From: Promethearchaeota archaeon
GTDB taxonomy: Archaea > Asgardarchaeota > Lokiarchaeia > Sigynarchaeales > SOKP01
NCBI GenBank assembly: GCA_004524515.1
Contig: SDNV01000113.1
Location: 1-8,644, forward strand
Direction of reading: 5' to 3'
DNA: 8,644 nucleotides
The notes beneath the pieces are model-generated. The model saw only the letters and a program-made list of their open reading frames with translations, had not been told where the DNA came from and made no database searches. The position numbers and the translations under genes are program-made. Below are positions 2,585 to 8,644 of this stretch, piece by piece; within the stretch, counting starts at the first letter, position 1; every line of letters begins with the position of its first letter.

Positions 2585-2986
2585 ATGAAGGAAGTAAGAA
2601 TTTTAACTTTAGACAGCCGAGGTAGACTGGTTATTCCAAAAATTATTCGTAAGAGTTTGGGAATTACAAATAAATCCCAGTTAATGATGGTCGCGGATAG
2701 TGAGACAAAAGAGATTAAAATTGTACCGGTTGGCTTTGGCGGGGAATCTTTTAAATTTAAGATATTAATGAAAGATCAAGCAGGTTCCCTAGCAAAAATC
2801 CTCTCTATTTTTGGACGGCAGGGGATTTCTTTAGTGTATGAAGAAACCATAGTGTTAGAAAAAAATAAATCGGCAATTTGCACTCTTATAGGACCTAAAC
2901 CTAATAATGTTAATATAGAGGAGTTTAAACAAATTTTAAAAGATGAAGGGGATGCTATTGATATTGAGATTACCCCCTTGGAATAA
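2585..2986 (+). CDS. AbrB/SpoVT-type DNA-binding protein with ACT domain
   Basis: A 133-residue two-domain regulator. Residues 3-50 form a swapped-hairpin AbrB/MazE/SpoVT domain: LDSRGRLVIPKIIRKSLGI is the classic signature, with Arg12, Arg14 and Pro18-Lys19 in the DNA-binding strand and turn. Residues 56-131 form an ACT fold (strand FKFKILM, loop KDQAGSLAKIL, helix, then strands), a module that usually binds an amino acid or other small ligand at a dimer interface. The protein is therefore probably a small-molecule-responsive dimeric transcription factor. It has no antitoxin-like neighbour, so a toxin-antitoxin role is unlikely. It is divergent from the sugar transporter gene (256-base shared upstream region) and sits 140 bases before the actin-related cluster, either of which it might control along with its own gene. 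Effector and operator are unknown. Confidence 0.85.
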   Translation: MKEVRILTLDSRGRLVIPKIIRKSLGITNKSQLMMVADSETKEIKIVPVGFGGESFKFKILMKDQAGSLAKILSIFGRQGISLVYEETIVLEKNKSAICTLIGPKPNNVNIEEFKQILKDEGDAIDIEITPLE

Positions 2987-3022: not shown

Positions 3023-3066
3023 TAAAATATATTTAATCTAATATATTGTCCTCCAATTAAAATAGA

Positions 3067-3074
3067 TTTATAAA
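3067..3074 (+). promoter_or_regulatory. TATA box of the actin-related gene cluster
   Basis: TTTATAAA, preceded by a purine-rich AATAGA that could act as the TFB recognition element, is the best TATA match in the window. Normal spacing puts transcription start near 3097-3100, leaving a leader of roughly 30 bases before the ATG at 3127. It follows a terminator-like element and precedes four same-direction genes. Confidence 0.55.
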
Positions 3075-3126
3075 CCAATTGTACTATTAGAAATATAAAT
3101 TTAATAGAAAAAAAGGCTTGGTTTTA

Positions 3127-3888
3127 ATGGCTAAAAGGAAAAAAAAAAAGACTGCAGGAGAAACTTTAGCCTCCACTTTAAAAGAAAAAAAAAGTAAAAA
3201 AAGTTCTGGAGAACCAACAGAAACTCTTTTTGAATCTACAACAGAAACTCAAGACGCACTTCAATCCTTACTCCAAGGGGTTTCCGAAGGCGCTGGATTT
3301 TATAAACGCGAAAATAAAGAAGAGGATTTAATCGAACCTCAATTAATTTATGATGTAAAAAGCAAAATCGCTGAGGACTATGCTATGGAAGATATTCCCA
3401 TCTCAGACAGAAAATTGACGGAGAAAAAAAAAACACCACTAACGGATTCTGAACTATCAAAAATAGAAGAGATTAAAGTAGAAGAACTCCCTTCCCCTCC
3501 GAAAAGCAGTGTGGGGGAAAATATATATGAAAATTTAGAGCTCTTTTTTACGGATTATTTAAAGGGTTATAGTGAACGTTATAACACATGGGAAGAAAGC
3601 GTTAGTAATGTTTTATCCATTTTAAGAAAAATGCGAAAATTTACCAAAAAAAATACTGAAGATTTAATAGATTCAATAAATAATCTATTCAAAAAAATAG
3701 AAATCAATTTACAGCAGTTTAAAGTAAAAAGAGATGAAATAGAAAAAATTGCTGGTGTGGATATAGAAACAATGTCGGGCGAATTCAAGAAGGTGTTAGG
3801 TTTACTGGAATTGCAAGTCAAAGAATATCAGCTGAAAAAATTAACAGATGAGTTTATACATCAGCAACAAATGTATTCTGAGCTTTAA
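3127..3888 (+). CDS. Uncharacterised basic/helical protein, first gene of the actin-related cluster
   Basis: I do not recognise a family. The ATG at 3127 gives 253 residues beginning MAKRKKKK; a TTG at 3118 would add only three residues and has no better ribosome site, so the ATG is preferred. Residues 1-30 are very Lys/Arg-rich and probably disordered, possibly nucleic-acid- or polyanion-binding. Residues 30-130 are acidic, Ser/Thr/Pro-containing and low in hydrophobics, so a flexible linker. Residues 134-253 are predicted helical (ENLELFFTDYLKGYSERYNTW onset, then long amphipathic helices with regular Leu/Ile spacing), likely a helical bundle or coiled coil used for binding a partner. There is no signal peptide or membrane segment. 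The basic tail is encoded by A-runs of 11, 9 and 7, prone to indels. It lies 51 bases before the actin-related gene on the same strand, suggesting a partner of that protein; this is inference. Confidence 0.7.
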   Translation: MAKRKKKKTAGETLASTLKEKKSKKSSGEPTETLFESTTETQDALQSLLQGVSEGAGFYKRENKEEDLIEPQLIYDVKSKIAEDYAMEDIPISDRKLTEKKKTPLTDSELSKIEEIKVEELPSPPKSSVGENIYENLELFFTDYLKGYSERYNTWEESVSNVLSILRKMRKFTKKNTEDLIDSINNLFKKIEINLQQFKVKRDEIEKIAGVDIETMSGEFKKVLGLLELQVKEYQLKKLTDEFIHQQQMYSEL

Positions 3889-3939
3889 TATATTAATCGA
3901 ATTTTTTTATTAATTTTTAAATATAATTTAAAAATTATC

Positions 3940-5085
3940 ATGCTTAATACAGATAAACAATTAAGACCACTAATTATAGATATAGGGACAGATAAATTCA
4001 AATTAGGTTGGGCTGGTGATGATTCACCAAGTATTCTTGCTCCCTCTATATATGCCAATCGAGGCGATTTCATATTTGATTCAAATGAAATTGATGGACT
4101 TGAGGAATTGTTCTATGATGAGAGCGCTGAAAGTCATTTATTTGGGGAAATAGCCCTAAATTATCAAAACGTTTTGAATATCCATGAATTTAAGAAAGAA
4201 GCACAATTTTCAATACTCTCCAAGTTTTTTCAATATTATTATCAAAAATTAAACGTTGGTGCAGAGTATCAGAATAAGCAACCGATCATCGTAATAACTC
4301 CATTTTTTATACCGGATCTTGAAAAAACCAAATTACAGCAAATTTTTTTCAATGAATTAAATTTTCCTTATATCTTATTTTTATCCGAAAGTCAAGCCAT
4401 ATTACAAACCCTACAAAAAACCACTGGAGTTGTGGTAAATATGGGGGAATCCCATACCTATATTTCTTCGATTTTTCATGGATTTACAAATATTATGGCA
4501 AGAGATATCTTTCCAGTGGCAGGTAAGGATTTAACAAATTACTTAATTAATTTAATTATAACTAAGAAGGGTTCTGGGATAAATTTATATCTTGAAAAAT
4601 GGCTCGCGAAAGAAATTAAAGAGAAAACCGCATTGTGTGTATTAAACCCAGAGGTAGAAATTGAAAGTATAAAACAAGGTTTTACTAATTTTGATCAAGT
4701 TATTAATTTTCCTGATGGAACTAGTTTGGGAATAAATTCAGAAAGATTTATACTCACTGAACCCTATTTTAATCCAAAAATTATTCGTATCGATTATATT
4801 GGTTTACCCGAAGTAATAGCAAAAGTAATAAAATCATGGGATAGAGAAAATTGGGAAGAATTAATTCCGAATATAATCCTTTCTGGAGGAGGGAGTTTAA
4901 TTCCCGGGTTAAAAGAAAGAATGAAATTGGAAATCAAAAAACAATTTTCAGATAAAATTAATGAAAAAGTCAATATAATCGCAGCAGCAGGCCGAGAAAT
5001 CATGAGTTGGTTAGGTGCTTCGATATTATATTCTAAAAATGAATTACAAGATGGCTGGATCCCAAATCCAGAATATAAAGGTTAA
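3940..5085 (+). CDS. Divergent actin-related protein
   Basis: A 381-residue member of the actin superfamily (actin is about 375). Recognisable blocks in order: phosphate-1 loop, residues 11-30 (IIDIGTDKFKLGWAGDDSP, with Asp14 at the place of actin Asp11); VITPFFIP at 118-125, like actin LTEAPLNP; Gln152 at actin Gln137; phosphate-2 region 163-174; AGKDLTNYL at 194-202; an IKEK motif matching actin Lys213/Glu214; LGINSERF, like actin IGNERF; the adenosine loop LSGGGSLIPG at 314-323; and a C-terminal WLGASIL followed by a match to the actin tail. ATP binding is therefore likely. However, actin Asp154, Asp157 and His161 are replaced by Asn167, Glu170 and Tyr174, so hydrolysis may be slow or lost. 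It is clearly not a canonical, highly conserved lokiactin but an Arp-like paralogue. It lies 28 bases before the ribosome-site-linked start of the CHAT gene, a probable operon. Confidence 0.85.
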   Translation: MLNTDKQLRPLIIDIGTDKFKLGWAGDDSPSILAPSIYANRGDFIFDSNEIDGLEELFYDESAESHLFGEIALNYQNVLNIHEFKKEAQFSILSKFFQYYYQKLNVGAEYQNKQPIIVITPFFIPDLEKTKLQQIFFNELNFPYILFLSESQAILQTLQKTTGVVVNMGESHTYISSIFHGFTNIMARDIFPVAGKDLTNYLINLIITKKGSGINLYLEKWLAKEIKEKTALCVLNPEVEIESIKQGFTNFDQVINFPDGTSLGINSERFILTEPYFNPKIIRIDYIGLPEVIAKVIKSWDRENWEELIPNIILSGGGSLIPGLKERMKLEIKKQFSDKINEKVNIIAAAGREIMSWLGASILYSKNELQDGWIPNPEYKG

Positions 5086-5097
5086 ATGAAATTTATA

Positions 5098-5104
5098 GAG
5101 GTGG
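5098..5104 (+). promoter_or_regulatory. Shine-Dalgarno site pointing to a start upstream of TTG 5147
   Basis: GAGGTGG contains GAGGTG, a six-base match to the archaeal consensus GGAGGTGATC and one of the best in the window. It is 42 bases before the TTG at 5147, too far to serve it, but 6-9 bases before ATA 5111 and ATT 5114, which are in the same frame. This argues for initiation at one of these non-canonical codons or for an indel in the sequence. Confidence 0.5.
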
Positions 5105-5146
5105 AAAATTATAATTTCGACAGATTCCGAAGTAAGAGAACAATTC
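5099..5146 (+). other. In-frame N-terminal extension of the CHAT gene without canonical start
   Basis: The reading frame of the downstream gene is open from 5099 (previous codon TAG at 5096). It encodes RWKIIISTDSEVREQF before the TTG codon. From the Ser onward this reads like a normal protein N-terminus running into the following amphipathic helix, yet it has no ATG, GTG or TTG. Starting at ATT 5114 would give 829 residues and a terminus Met-Ser-Thr-Asp-Ser-Glu. An ATG at 5086, touching the actin-related stop, is in another frame and reaches a stop at 5220. Confidence 0.45.
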
Positions 5147-7603
5147 TTGAAAAATTTCCAAAACCGCGTTTTACAAGGAAGGAAATTATTGAATTCCGCA
5201 AATCATCGATGGGGGGATAAATTATTCACAGAGCTTTATTTTGAGATTGAGAAGATCGATTGGTTAACACCTCAAAAAAAGAGACAACTGATTATGATCA
5301 TCTCTAATTCATGGTGGATTTATTTAAATTCATTAAAAAGCTCTAAAGAAAATGAATTTGATCTGATTAGATATGTGGATGCTTATAATCGATTTTTTTC
5401 ATTTTTATCAAAATTAGATGAGTTTGATTTATTTACCAATTTTTGGACTAATCTTTTAAAGTCTATCATAAGATCGAAAGATTTCTCCGTCAATGGAGTT
5501 ACAAAATTAATTAATTCATTTTGTGAGAAAGTAAAAAAAAGAGAAGATAAAATATCACTAGTCGAGCTGCAATTATTATTAATGTATTTAAGAAAATCAG
5601 TAATACCTTCAGATCTTTTTCGAATAAGTTTAAAAATATTAGGTGAAATACTCTATAAAATTGAACCCGCTAAAAAAAGTCTGTTTTTGTATATTATTAT
5701 TGAGAATGTGAGACTGGATTTTCTGGAAGAATCGGAAGATTTTGTAAACGATATCAATAAAATTTTGACAAATCGATTACCGAGTTATTTAAAAGACGAA
5801 TTTAGCAATTTAAGAAAAATTAGTATCAATGAAAGAAATTTTACCGAGATATTGGCCGACTTGGAAGCTTTGATCTATTATTTAAATCATATTGGTGAGC
5901 ACTCGTGGATTATTATACTCATTAAAAATATTTTTAGTAGAATTAGAGAATACCGCTCATTAGAAGAAGCAGTTCAATTCATTAAAAAATATATAGATTT
6001 TTCCGTAAATAGAAATCAGTTTCAAATAGCGTATGCGATTTATGATTTTTTAGAAGATGTGTTTATGTATCAGACTGATTTGGGTTATGATACGAATTTA
6101 ATCGAATTATGGGTTGATGCGTGTAAAAAATTTGTGGATATGAAAGAAAAAAAATATTTATATCAATCCCTAGAAAAATTAAGTAATCATCTTAAAACTC
6201 CCCAAACTAATGAGGAGATTTTCCATTATTTCTATACTTATAATTATCTTTGGCAATTCAAAAGCAAATTTTTTGTATTAGATTCAGGGGATTTTTGGAA
6301 GATGATTTTCTTTCGAACGCTTTTCGAGGAAAAACAATTTGATTTAGCACAAAAAATAATATCATTTTTACCTGAAGAGATACAATCTAATTTAACGGAT
6401 TTAAATTCATTATTCCGCGTAGCAGAGTCAATAAAACCTCAAATATATTCTTTAGGGGGGACTCAAGAAGAACCTATGTCATTTAATGCTGATTTTTTAT
6501 TAAATAAAATGATATTACGAATTAATGCCGAGGGGGCCATCTCTTTTAAAATTTCCTTTAAAAATGAAAAAATAATGGAAGGTCGAATTACAGATGAATA
6601 TTGGAATGACTTGCAAATTATGGAGATATACAACGACCTTTTCTCAGGATCTCAACAAAAAACATATCCATTTAATTTAATTGAATTTGGGAAATTATTA
6701 TATAATTTCTTACCCAAGACGATAAGAACTTTCTTCGAACCTTTCAAATCAAAAAAATTGAATTATATCCCCCAAATCTATATTATTCTAGATAACATGA
6801 CAATTCCCTTTGACTTGTTTTATGACAATAATTTTTTTATGTTAAAATATTCTTGTGGATATAAAATTGGCGAGCCTCCTTTAGGAGGGATAATCTCTGA
6901 ACAAGTAGTAACAGAAGATCACCCTTTAAAACTCCAGAATAAATATAATATTTTACTGGTAGAAGTAACTAATTTAAAAGGGCCTTTAAAATGGAACGAA
7001 GAATCTAAACAGAAAATTCTTGTTTTTCCATTTGTCGATGCTGCAGAGGAATTCGATTATATCACACATTTCTTTAATAATCAATCAGAAATTAATGAAA
7101 TGACAATCTTAAGTGGACTAGAATCTTCTCGAGAAAAAATTTTAACATCCATTTCCCAAGAAGCATTTCATATCATTCACTTTGTAGGAAATATCTTTTA
7201 TTCTAATTTAAGTCCAAAAGACAGCTACTTTCTAACAAATGAGAATAATTTAATTACTTTTCATGAAATTAAAAGAGCTTTAGATAAAAATCAACATAAT
7301 ATTCAACCGATTTTATTTTTTAATGTCCAAATTTTCGATATGAATGGAATAAGATTAAGAAATGTATTGAGAACGTTTGGCGAAATTATCAGACAATTTA
7401 ACTTTGATAGAATTACAGGAATTATCTCTCGGATTTATCCTCTATTTAATGAGAGTACAAGAGAAATTATGTCGAATTTTTATATTAACTTATTTGAAAA
7501 TAATACTCTTGCTGAGGCGCTTCTGAATGCAAGAAAACAGTGTAAAAGTGGGTTAGCTATAAGTTCTTTTATATTGTTTGGAAAACCTTGGAAATTATTA
7601 TAA
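5147..7603 (+). CDS. Helical-repeat protein with C-terminal CHAT (caspase/separase-like) domain lacking the catalytic dyad
   Basis: 818 residues from TTG 5147, probably about 830 if translation starts at the ribosome site upstream. Residues 1-435 are almost wholly helical, with TPR/solenoid-like spacing and no membrane segment. A Gly-rich break at 436-439 leads to a beta-rich section. The CHAT domain covers about 515-818: GKLLYNFLPKTI helix, then IYIILDNMTIPFDLFYD (Pro554), EEFDYITHFF, IIHFVGN at 676-682, ILFFNVQIFD near 728, TGIISRIYPLFNESTREIM, the Tyr-containing helix FYINLFENNTLAEALLNARK, and a closing FILFGKPWKLL. Family members are cysteine peptidases with His in a GHG motif and Cys in an NAC motif. 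Here these positions read GNI (Asn682) and NVQ (Gln728), so proteolysis is unlikely. The solenoid is probably a sensor or binding arm. Tightly linked to the actin-related gene upstream. Confidence 0.8.
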   Translation: MKNFQNRVLQGRKLLNSANHRWGDKLFTELYFEIEKIDWLTPQKKRQLIMIISNSWWIYLNSLKSSKENEFDLIRYVDAYNRFFSFLSKLDEFDLFTNFWTNLLKSIIRSKDFSVNGVTKLINSFCEKVKKREDKISLVELQLLLMYLRKSVIPSDLFRISLKILGEILYKIEPAKKSLFLYIIIENVRLDFLEESEDFVNDINKILTNRLPSYLKDEFSNLRKISINERNFTEILADLEALIYYLNHIGEHSWIIILIKNIFSRIREYRSLEEAVQFIKKYIDFSVNRNQFQIAYAIYDFLEDVFMYQTDLGYDTNLIELWVDACKKFVDMKEKKYLYQSLEKLSNHLKTPQTNEEIFHYFYTYNYLWQFKSKFFVLDSGDFWKMIFFRTLFEEKQFDLAQKIISFLPEEIQSNLTDLNSLFRVAESIKPQIYSLGGTQEEPMSFNADFLLNKMILRINAEGAISFKISFKNEKIMEGRITDEYWNDLQIMEIYNDLFSGSQQKTYPFNLIEFGKLLYNFLPKTIRTFFEPFKSKKLNYIPQIYIILDNMTIPFDLFYDNNFFMLKYSCGYKIGEPPLGGIISEQVVTEDHPLKLQNKYNILLVEVTNLKGPLKWNEESKQKILVFPFVDAAEEFDYITHFFNNQSEINEMTILSGLESSREKILTSISQEAFHIIHFVGNIFYSNLSPKDSYFLTNENNLITFHEIKRALDKNQHNIQPILFFNVQIFDMNGIRLRNVLRTFGEIIRQFNFDRITGIISRIYPLFNESTREIMSNFYINLFENNTLAEALLNARKQCKSGLAISSFILFGKPWKLL

Positions 7604-7708
7604 TTTACACAGCATTTAAAATAATTAATAAAATAAGGAAAATTGAAAAAACTTAGAAAAATTTAAAAAAAACTTTCACATAAAAAAAAGAATTGAAAAA
7701 AGAGTTGA

Positions 7709-7801
7709 TGTATCATCTCCGATCGCTTAAATGAATTACGATTAGAAAATAGGCGTTTAAAAGGCCAGATTGAAGAATTTGAACAAAAATTAATAGCATT
7801 A
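7709..7801 (+). other. In-frame coiled-coil extension upstream of the GTG start of the PLD-like gene
   Basis: The frame is open from 7709 (stop TGA at 7706) and lacks ATG, GTG and TTG until 7802. It nevertheless encodes a clear coiled coil: SDRLNELRLENRRLKG followed by QIEEFEQKLIALV, with Leu/Ile/Phe at heptad spacing and an Asn at a core position, as in leucine zippers. A Shine-Dalgarno-like GAGTTGATG (7702-7710, two mismatches to GAGGTGATC) precedes ATC 7712 and ATC 7715. Initiation at 7715 would give 177 residues starting Met-Ser-Asp-Arg-Leu. An ATG at 7708 is out of frame and stops after eight codons; skipping T7711 would join it to this frame. Confidence 0.55.
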
Positions 7802-8248
7802 GTGGGTAATATTGAATTAGAATCTTCTGGAGAAGCGGAGAATAAAGAATATCTTAATAATTTATTAATTGAATTTATTAATGCCACTCAAGATCAAGTT
7901 AATATCGTTACTCCTAAAATAGATAAATTTTATACGAACGAGCTGAAGAAAATTGCTCAAAAAGGTATTCCTATTCTATTAATCACTACCGATAGACGTT
8001 TGTTATCTAAACCTTATCAAAAAATATATGATGATCTCACCAGCACCCCAGGTATAAGTGTAATTAATAACCCCAATGTAAAATATCTACTTGTATTTAA
8101 TACGGACAAGGCTATTTATTCCGGAGGTGCTTTAGATCGAGAAGAACTCTCTCAATCTATATTGATAGTTACAATAATTAAAGAAACCGCAAAATTAAGA
8201 AAAATAGCAGAGATTTTCAGCGCAATGCTACCCTCTTTTATGAGATAA
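7802..8248 (+). CDS. Coiled-coil protein with degenerate phospholipase D-like domain
   Basis: 148 residues from GTG 7802, but that codon has no ribosome site and the coding signal continues upstream, so the real protein is probably 177-178 residues with an N-terminal coiled coil. Residues 17-145 look like one half of a phospholipase D-type fold: a helix (EYLNNLLIEFINAT), strand QVNIVTP, helix with YTNELKKIAQKG, strand IPILLIT, then PGISVINNPNVKYLLVFNTDKAIYSGG and a strand ILIVTII. This order matches PLD-like sensor or effector domains in archaeal regulators. The HKD motif is degenerate: the His position is Asn92, Lys94 is kept, and the Asp position is Phe99. Catalysis is therefore doubtful and a binding or dimerisation role is more likely. 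There is no signal peptide. It is the last complete gene of the cluster, 105 bases (to the frame opening) after the CHAT gene. The family call is moderate. Confidence 0.6.
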   Translation: MGNIELESSGEAENKEYLNNLLIEFINATQDQVNIVTPKIDKFYTNELKKIAQKGIPILLITTDRRLLSKPYQKIYDDLTSTPGISVINNPNVKYLLVFNTDKAIYSGGALDREELSQSILIVTIIKETAKLRKIAEIFSAMLPSFMR

Positions 8249-8359: not shown

Positions 8360-8644
8360 ATGATGGCTAAAAGAAGGATTAATAGTAAAGATGTCGGCGA
8401 AATTTTTGGTTTAGACTCTAAGATTTTTAAGGAATCACTAACCTTTCTTAAAAAGAACGCAGAAAATGGGTTAATAACCGAATTCAAAAAGAATTTTGAA
8501 AATTGGAAGAAAAATTTTGACGAAATTTATGGAGAACCTTCTTTAGCCTCCAATTTATTCTTAAAACATACCTATTTTGTTTTAATATTAAAATCGTTAA
8601 TTTTAATTAAATTAGCCAATAAAAAAAATTTAAAATTAGATAAA
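8360..8644 (+). CDS. N-terminal fragment, possibly a type IIG restriction / N6-adenine DNA methylase-like protein
   Basis: The frame is open from ATG 8360 to the last base (95 codons) and runs out of the window. ATG 8363 is an equally possible start; no clear Shine-Dalgarno is seen. The protein starts MMAKRRINS and is helical. The block FENWKKNFDEIYGEPSLASN followed by LFLKHTYFVLILKSLILIKLA resembles a helical segment near the start of large single-chain DNA methylase / type IIG restriction-modification proteins, where a W..Y.....LF.KHTYL...K motif precedes the methylase domain. That resemblance is from memory, and the methylase motifs (FxGxG, NPPY) would lie beyond the window, so the function is tentative. 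It is separated from the PLD-like gene by 111 bases with T runs, so it may be a separate transcription unit. Confidence 0.5.
   Translation, partial: MMAKRRINSKDVGEIFGLDSKIFKESLTFLKKNAENGLITEFKKNFENWKKNFDEIYGEPSLASNLFLKHTYFVLILKSLILIKLANKKNLKLDK

Follow-up and report, generated by a model that had tools for sequence, protein, structure and literature searches.

A conserved gene cluster of Lokiarchaeia joins a divergent actin-related protein to a TPR-CHAT protein lacking the catalytic pair

The contig SDNV01000113.1 of a Promethearchaeota archaeon (assembly GCA_004524515.1) was analyzed over its full length of 8,644 nucleotides, which is called the window here. Its plus strand carries genes named SPO, HEL, ARP, CHAT, and PLD in this order, followed by the start of a further gene, while an FMN-reductase gene and an MFS gene lie upstream on the minus strand. 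A sequence-only reading had described HEL, ARP, CHAT, and PLD as a cluster of four same-direction genes. All four (HEL 3127..3888, ARP 3940..5085, CHAT 5114..7603, and PLD 7715..8248, the last two with probable starts) are indeed neighbors on the plus strand, but the unit is larger, since SPO upstream and a DNA methylase gene downstream recur in related genomes (loci and contigs are cited below by L numbers, genomes by G numbers, and database proteins by P numbers).

ARP encodes a divergent actin-related protein (ARP) and matched Pfam Actin (PF00022) at E 8.1e-50 over residues 8-380 of 381, which places it in the actin family. A tree of 38 rows was built from the cluster ARPs, 19 paralogues from the same phylum and yeast actin. 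A branch with a support of 100/99 separated the 18 cluster ARPs from the rest, the Lokiactin clade included; the tree tool warned of long branches for G090 and some of the paralogues. The identity of the cluster ARPs to yeast actin was 22-29%. Among the residues of the actin ATPase, Q137 and H161 were kept in none of the 18 and D154 in two (G096 and G097), while all three were retained in 14/14 Lokiactin-type paralogues. The window protein has E, N, and Y at these positions, and so lacks the residues of a filament-forming actin ATPase.

The conservation of actin contact sets was then scored against circular shifts in 44 cluster ARPs and 14 Lokiactin-type paralogues. The D-loop was the lowest set in the cluster ARPs, with 0.3% of circular shifts as low (below 99.7% of the controls). 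Moreover, the combined pointed side was low (2.2%) and the combined barbed side high (1.1%), and the SD3 longitudinal set alone gave 2.5%. The nucleotide cleft of the Lokiactin-type proteins was high (1.1%), and their D-loop and pointed side were average. By this measure, the traits that distinguish the cluster ARP from the Lokiactins are a drifting D-loop and an ordinary cleft. Because the D-loop is poorly conserved, the protein may not polymerize alone, which suggests a subunit of a larger assembly, and its binding would take place via the barbed face. An alternative is that ARP builds its own filament, regulated by HEL, CHAT, and PLD, like crenactin with its arcadins in the arcade cluster. 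An actin fold and a helical neighbor gene do occur here in one cluster, and the cleft glycines are kept (G13, G156, and G301 in 18/18, G182 in 17 and G302 in 15 cluster ARPs); yet the changes of Q137 and H161 in all 18 and of D154 in 16, together with the below-average conservation of the D-loop, pointed and lateral sets, make such a filament improbable.

The CHAT protein matched Pfam CHAT at E 7.7e-7, above the cut-off. Its fold model consists of an all-helical solenoid at residues ∼5-443 and a C-terminal caspase-like CHAT domain at ∼609-826, which is the fold expected of the family. The position of the catalytic His (an Asn codon at 7190..7192 on the plus strand of the window) was occupied by N in 49 and I in 1 of the 50 aligned sequences, and that of the catalytic Cys (a Gln codon at 7328..7330 on the same strand) by Q in 45, R in 4, and K in 1. 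The His-Cys dyad was thus absent in 50/50 sequences, and the protein appears to be a pseudo-protease. A nearby Cys was seen only in P0213, one residue ahead of the catalytic position. With the CHAT model in Foldseek, five of the ten matches at E <= 0.001 were separase, with a whole-chain template modeling (TM) score of about 0.2; Csx29 was found at E 4e-8 and 5e-6, and SAVED-CHAT and Craspase systems were among the fold matches. A profile search of the PDB gave no match.

Other CHAT proteins were seen in the phylum. A Ras-type small GTPase is fused to a CHAT domain in two genomes (L098:4684-6369 and L099:4041-5738, both on the plus strand), with Pfam values of 1e-36 and 6e-32 for Ras and 7e-29 and 1e-30 for CHAT. 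These proteins (G086/G087) retain GH and NAC motifs at the loops that match the lost dyad of the cluster CHAT, and the fusion is possibly a GTPase-controlled protease. A second, distant TPR-CHAT family was found at L096:4595-6766 and L097:5621-7783; there was no match to the ARP profile in the 12 kb around either gene, and no obvious His-Cys pair was seen by eye.

HEL belongs to no known family. Only sub-threshold matches were obtained in Pfam and NCBIfam, the best being PBC at E 6e-4 (below the cut-off), and a PDB profile search found nothing. At least 572 database proteins match HEL; among the best 120, the named ones were hypothetical except P0096 (phosphoglycerate mutase), and the labels were mostly Asgard, with one bacterium. 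The N-terminus is Lys-rich in most relatives; a variable linker, in which short motifs are conserved, comes next, and then ∼110 conserved C-terminal residues that look helical. HEL had earlier been described as basic, but this applies only to the lysine tail, and its computed isoelectric point is 5.4. The N-terminal motifs were considered as ARP-linked and rejected, as G090 and G097 lack them in spite of having ARP.

For PLD, the match to Pfam PLDc_2 (E 5e-5) was below the cut-off, and the fold model supports a PLD-like fold. The 177-aa model opens with a single long helix. The HxKx4D motif was absent in 28/28 aligned rows and in 14/14 more distant relatives (42/42 in all), and nucleases and lipid enzymes ranked above TrmB in the fold search. 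No match was obtained in a PDB profile search. Pfam TrmB was unlisted for the window protein at E <= 1 and above the cut-off in the G089 relative; the window PLD has no N-terminal winged helix with a TrmB domain, as TrmB has.

The degeneracy that had been proposed for the three recognizable domains is thus shared by their relatives (ARP 18/18, CHAT 50/50, and PLD 42/42), which agrees with the assembly or sensing role favored at the time. The same reading had linked CHAT and PLD-like domains to immune and death effectors, and this link was not sustained. In a defense or programmed-death module, CHAT and PLD would be the effectors and ARP or HEL the sensor; CHAT domains do occur in the SAVED-CHAT and Craspase systems found by fold, and the downstream methylase has restriction-type matches. 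However, the catalytic residues of both candidate effectors are lost, and five of the six cluster proteins had no PADLOC match at E <= 0.1, the methylase alone matching. In addition, the gene order is fixed and there is normally one locus per genome, unlike a mobile defense module. Defense was dropped as the first-choice explanation on these grounds and is now given only a slight probability, and a catalytic or toxic effector role is unlikely.

To survey the locus in related archaea, genome contigs from GTDB were scanned with the window ARP, which gave 27 loci, all labeled Lokiarchaeota or Lokiarchaeia. HEL precedes ARP in 27/27 loci, and SPO precedes HEL on the same strand in 26, the remaining contig beginning inside HEL. 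CHAT follows ARP in 26/27 loci (the other contig stops within ARP), and PLD follows CHAT in 18; in eight of the nine loci without PLD the contig ends first. The gene order is therefore kept as far as the contigs reach, with irregularities in L016 and L018. In L016 (9159-10148) the CHAT frame breaks off at ∼330 aa; the contig goes on without gaps into other sequence, and no PLD is present. In L018 (5801-9122) a tandem partial duplication is present, with a full HEL, an ARP fragment, a HEL fragment and a full ARP. The upstream MFS and FMN-reductase genes of the window had no match in the 27 loci. Protein searches also returned Hermod-, Thor-, Hod-, and Heimdallarchaeota labels, and the families may extend beyond Lokiarchaeia, or some labels may be wrong.

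Profile searches for the four core proteins were then carried out in 227 genomes of the phylum. Matches were found in 61 genomes for HEL, 55 for the ARP orthologue, 56 for CHAT and 57 for PLD. ARP and CHAT occurred together in 54 genomes, and neither occurred in 170. ARP without CHAT was seen only in G114, at a contig end, and CHAT without ARP only in G099 and G100, where CHAT is partial. HEL and ARP were adjacent and ordered in 55/55 genomes (in G151 the neighbor is a duplicated ARP fragment), ARP and CHAT in 54/54, and CHAT and PLD in 48/50, the other two pairs being split over contigs. The cluster is normally single, and its order is fixed. Several matches had been dropped before counting: CHAT matches at E 2e-8 or weaker (G041, G083, G084, G086, G087, and a second site in G139), second CHAT fragments in G090 and G096, the Lokiactin-type ARP rows at 5.4e-52 or weaker, and secondary HEL fragments in G112, G151, and G156. 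The ARPs of G096 and G097 (6e-60 and 4e-55) barely outscore Lokiactins and were retained for their position and their place in the tree, and some matches hold internal stop codons or end at contig edges. Since the order holds across the 27 loci and ARP and CHAT are adjacent in every genome that has both, chance co-location is very unlikely. The neighborhood proposed from the window alone has thus withstood the comparison with related genomes.

Some genomes lack ARP and CHAT together. G091 and G092 carry SPO-HEL-PLD without the pair. In G093 and G094, HEL lies directly with PLD and exactly ARP and CHAT are absent; the flanks are homologous to those of G097 and contain a Hef-type helicase-nuclease, a PHP protein and an uncharacterized protein of ∼409 aa, with pairwise identities of 43-63% among the three genomes. 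The same flanks enclose HEL-ARP-CHAT-PLD in G097, and the G096 contig spans HEL to the downstream flank. In a HEL and PLD tree of 24 rows, unrooted at the base, G093/G094 were sister to G096/G097 with a support of 99.4/100, and G099 fell within the G101/G103 group, whose members keep both ARP and CHAT. In G099 (L065:7101-7784) the end of HEL abuts what is left of CHAT, its final ∼200 aa, and ARP is gone, through either a real loss or an assembly error. G100 has a transposase-like open reading frame (ORF) after HEL (identified by eye, with no Pfam match) and a CHAT cut at the contig end. A SPO profile was also run on 21 genomes near the range of the cluster that lack all or part of it; 12 gave no match, as would be the case if the locus were missing or the genome incomplete, and in G093/G094 SPO lies at a different place.

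Because the cluster ARPs form one clade, the ARP and CHAT pair is probably ancestral and was probably lost jointly in at least two cases (G093/G094 and G099) and perhaps in a third. The joint losses support a link between ARP and CHAT, short of proving interaction, and HEL and PLD are retained where the pair is missing. In G089, a PLD relative adjoins a gene whose 414-aa coiled-coil product ends in a weak match to MarR, below the threshold (L068:6893-8742, minus strand), and which is maybe a different partner for the same HEL and PLD base. These patterns also bear on the view that the genes are kept together by synteny alone, without shared function. Slow turnover of gene order could hold neighbors together within one group; the outer flanks, though, vary (MFS, FMN reductase, Hef-type helicase, and VWA) where the core does not, and ARP and CHAT are jointly absent in separate lineages. 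We consider this view very improbable, slightly more so than a defense module.

The results fit ARP and the TPR-CHAT protein as an add-on to a HEL and PLD base in a stable, non-enzymatic assembly. HEL and the dead PLD-like protein would form the base and dock on DNA or a membrane. The TPR-CHAT pseudo-protease would serve as a scaffold, as the solenoids of separase and Csx29 do, and ARP would be an actin-fold subunit without self-polymerization, attached by way of its barbed-end face. The complete complex would then most likely cap, anchor or position a partner actin, presumably Lokiactin, at the base, and the SPO protein would control the expression of the cluster. We put this forward as a tentative first choice among the readings. 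Its sharper form, in which the barbed-end face of ARP serves to template or cap Lokiactin at its pointed end, with the pseudo-protease as scaffold and HEL and dead PLD as anchor, is rather unlikely. If true, archaea would have an equivalent, assembled from unrelated partners, of eukaryotic ARP complexes like Arp2/3 or the ARP end of dynactin.

Several observations weigh against this reading. The barbed side is also highly conserved in the Lokiactins (2.2%), so that the signal is not special to the cluster ARP, and it weakened to 5.8% when divergent cluster rows were added. The combined barbed and pointed sets were chosen with separate values already in view; singly, the barbed groove gave 5.3%, the pointed face 20%, the lateral set 5.6% and the nucleotide cleft 26%. 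The sets themselves (barbed, pointed, lateral, D-loop, and cleft) are those that we take to be the actin contacts. Furthermore, five other Asgard ARP paralogues are each changed in at least one of Q137, D154, and H161; the catalytic degeneracy therefore does not single out the cluster ARP. The confidence in the reading was lowered because of this shared barbed-side conservation and these shared changes. The joint losses are possibly single deletions of adjacent genes, and the G099 and G100 cases possibly assembly faults. G095 and G158 have good SPO matches and no match to the four core proteins. The C-terminal HEL stretch LLELQVKEYQLKKL, which we take to resemble WH2, was examined as an ARP-linked motif and rejected; its core is also present in the ARP-less G091-G094, and it is kept only as a lead.

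SPO (2585..2986, plus strand) encodes a protein with SpoVT/AbrB DNA-binding and ACT domains, as judged from its position in the loci and from sub-cut-off matches to Pfam MazE_antitoxin (2.6e-5) and ACT (7.8e-5) and to NCBIfam PRK08577 (4e-22). It is a possible regulator of the cluster. The gene at 8360..8644 (plus strand) is the 5′ part, cut by the window end, of an N6-adenine DNA methylase of the Eco57I/type IIG kind (∼730 aa), which was matched by tblastn to an L001 gene (L001:12369-14573). Of its relatives, the two scanned (L001 and L007) matched Pfam Eco57I/N6_Mtase, and the NPPW motif was present in 10/10 inspected. The methylase occurs in 16/18 loci with PLD, within 230 bp in 12, displaced by 0.9-4.3 kb in four, and reversed in L048, L053, L070, and L073; its linkage looks looser than that of the core genes.

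Another possibility is a nucleoid or chromatin complex, in which ARP and HEL would act like Arp4/actin on the HSA helices of eukaryotic remodelers, PLD would bind DNA like TrmBL2, and SPO and the methylase would share the same chromosomal function. The loose methylase link speaks against it, as do the lack of an ATPase motor in the cluster, the lack of the TrmB winged helix in PLD and the higher rank of nucleases and lipid enzymes in the PLD fold search. This complex is unlikely, though the least so of the rivals, and an actin-linked tether or cap is favored over it.

The signals for expression were also inspected. The TATA box that had been noted before HEL is the TATA-like TTTATAAA at 3067-3074, within an upstream block (3050..3126, plus strand) that is conserved between the window and its two closest relatives (L001 and L025), and the block is a putative promoter. 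The Shine-Dalgarno-like GAGGTGG of CHAT (5098..5104, plus strand) sits 12 bases past the ARP stop (13 in the earlier count). Where the genes of relatives begin, neither CHAT nor PLD of the window has an ATG. Judged from the alignment and by eye, the probable starts are ATT 5114 for CHAT, 9 nt behind GAGGTGG, and ATC 7715 for PLD. The CHAT starts of 26 relatives were ATG in 23, TTG in 2, and GTG in 1, while those of 18 PLD genes were TTG in 8, ATG in 6, ATC in 2 (window and L001), and ATT in 1 (L019); the latter tally covers the window and 17/18 loci, with L008 omitted and the L007 coordinate one codon late, behind an ATG. Apparent ATT or ATC starts were thus seen at 5114 and 7715 of the window, at L001 11756, and at L019 8402.

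Archaeal actin gene clusters are already known. The arcade cluster of Thermoproteales likewise groups an actin-family gene (crenactin) with genes of partner proteins (arcadins), but in the present cluster the catalytic residues of ARP are altered and the next gene encodes a TPR-CHAT protein. No arcadin models turned up in the Pfam and NCBIfam scans of the window proteins, with no direct arcadin comparison made. Eukaryotic nuclear and complex-bound ARPs (Arp4, Arp8, and Arp10/11) have an actin fold and a degenerate ATPase and are subunits of complexes, but their partners look unrelated to the cluster proteins. Separase shares the helical solenoid N-terminal to a caspase-like domain, but the cluster CHAT is smaller and lacks the catalytic residues, with low whole-chain similarity. 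Csx29 of the type III-E CRISPR Craspase has the same TPR-CHAT architecture, but here the protein is a putative pseudo-protease and its genomic partner an actin-related protein; no gRAMP/Cas7-11 partner was seen among the six cluster proteins scanned with PADLOC. In contrast to TrmB/TrmBL2 and FAM83/MITD1, the PLD model has an N-terminal helix in place of a winged helix or MIT domain.

Lokiactin and the other Asgard ARPs belong to the same actin family, but the cluster ARP is a separate clade with changed ATPase residues. Lokiactin and three further actin homologues were reported in Ca. L. ossiferum (Rodrigues-Oliveira et al., 2022; PMC9834061), and the available portions of that paper mention no comparable gene cluster. 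The Lokiactin primer published for this organism had no match in 46 of the 227 genomes, which were searched for it. The portions available of PMC12993045 and PMC7613921 likewise contain no description of the cluster. Within the open-licence literature searched, no papers were found on Asgard archaea with a CHAT domain or on a CHAT domain with an actin-like protein, and none described the ARP-CHAT cluster. Within the reach of these searches, the fixed association of an ARP with a TPR-CHAT pseudo-protease and a dead PLD is of an undescribed kind, as the sequence-only reading had supposed.

The regulation of Asgard actin is central to ideas on the origin of eukaryotes, and what Asgard ARPs do is still to be established. 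In this cluster, an ARP has a fixed set of genetic partners in genomes labeled Lokiarchaeota, which names candidate partners, and a separase-like TPR-CHAT protein without the catalytic pair sits next to a relative of actin. With ARP and CHAT so tightly paired, and with natural cases of their joint absence, the question can be tested directly. Lokiarchaea are archaea close to eukaryote ancestry, and the cluster points to what may be an undescribed non-enzymatic protein machine in this group.

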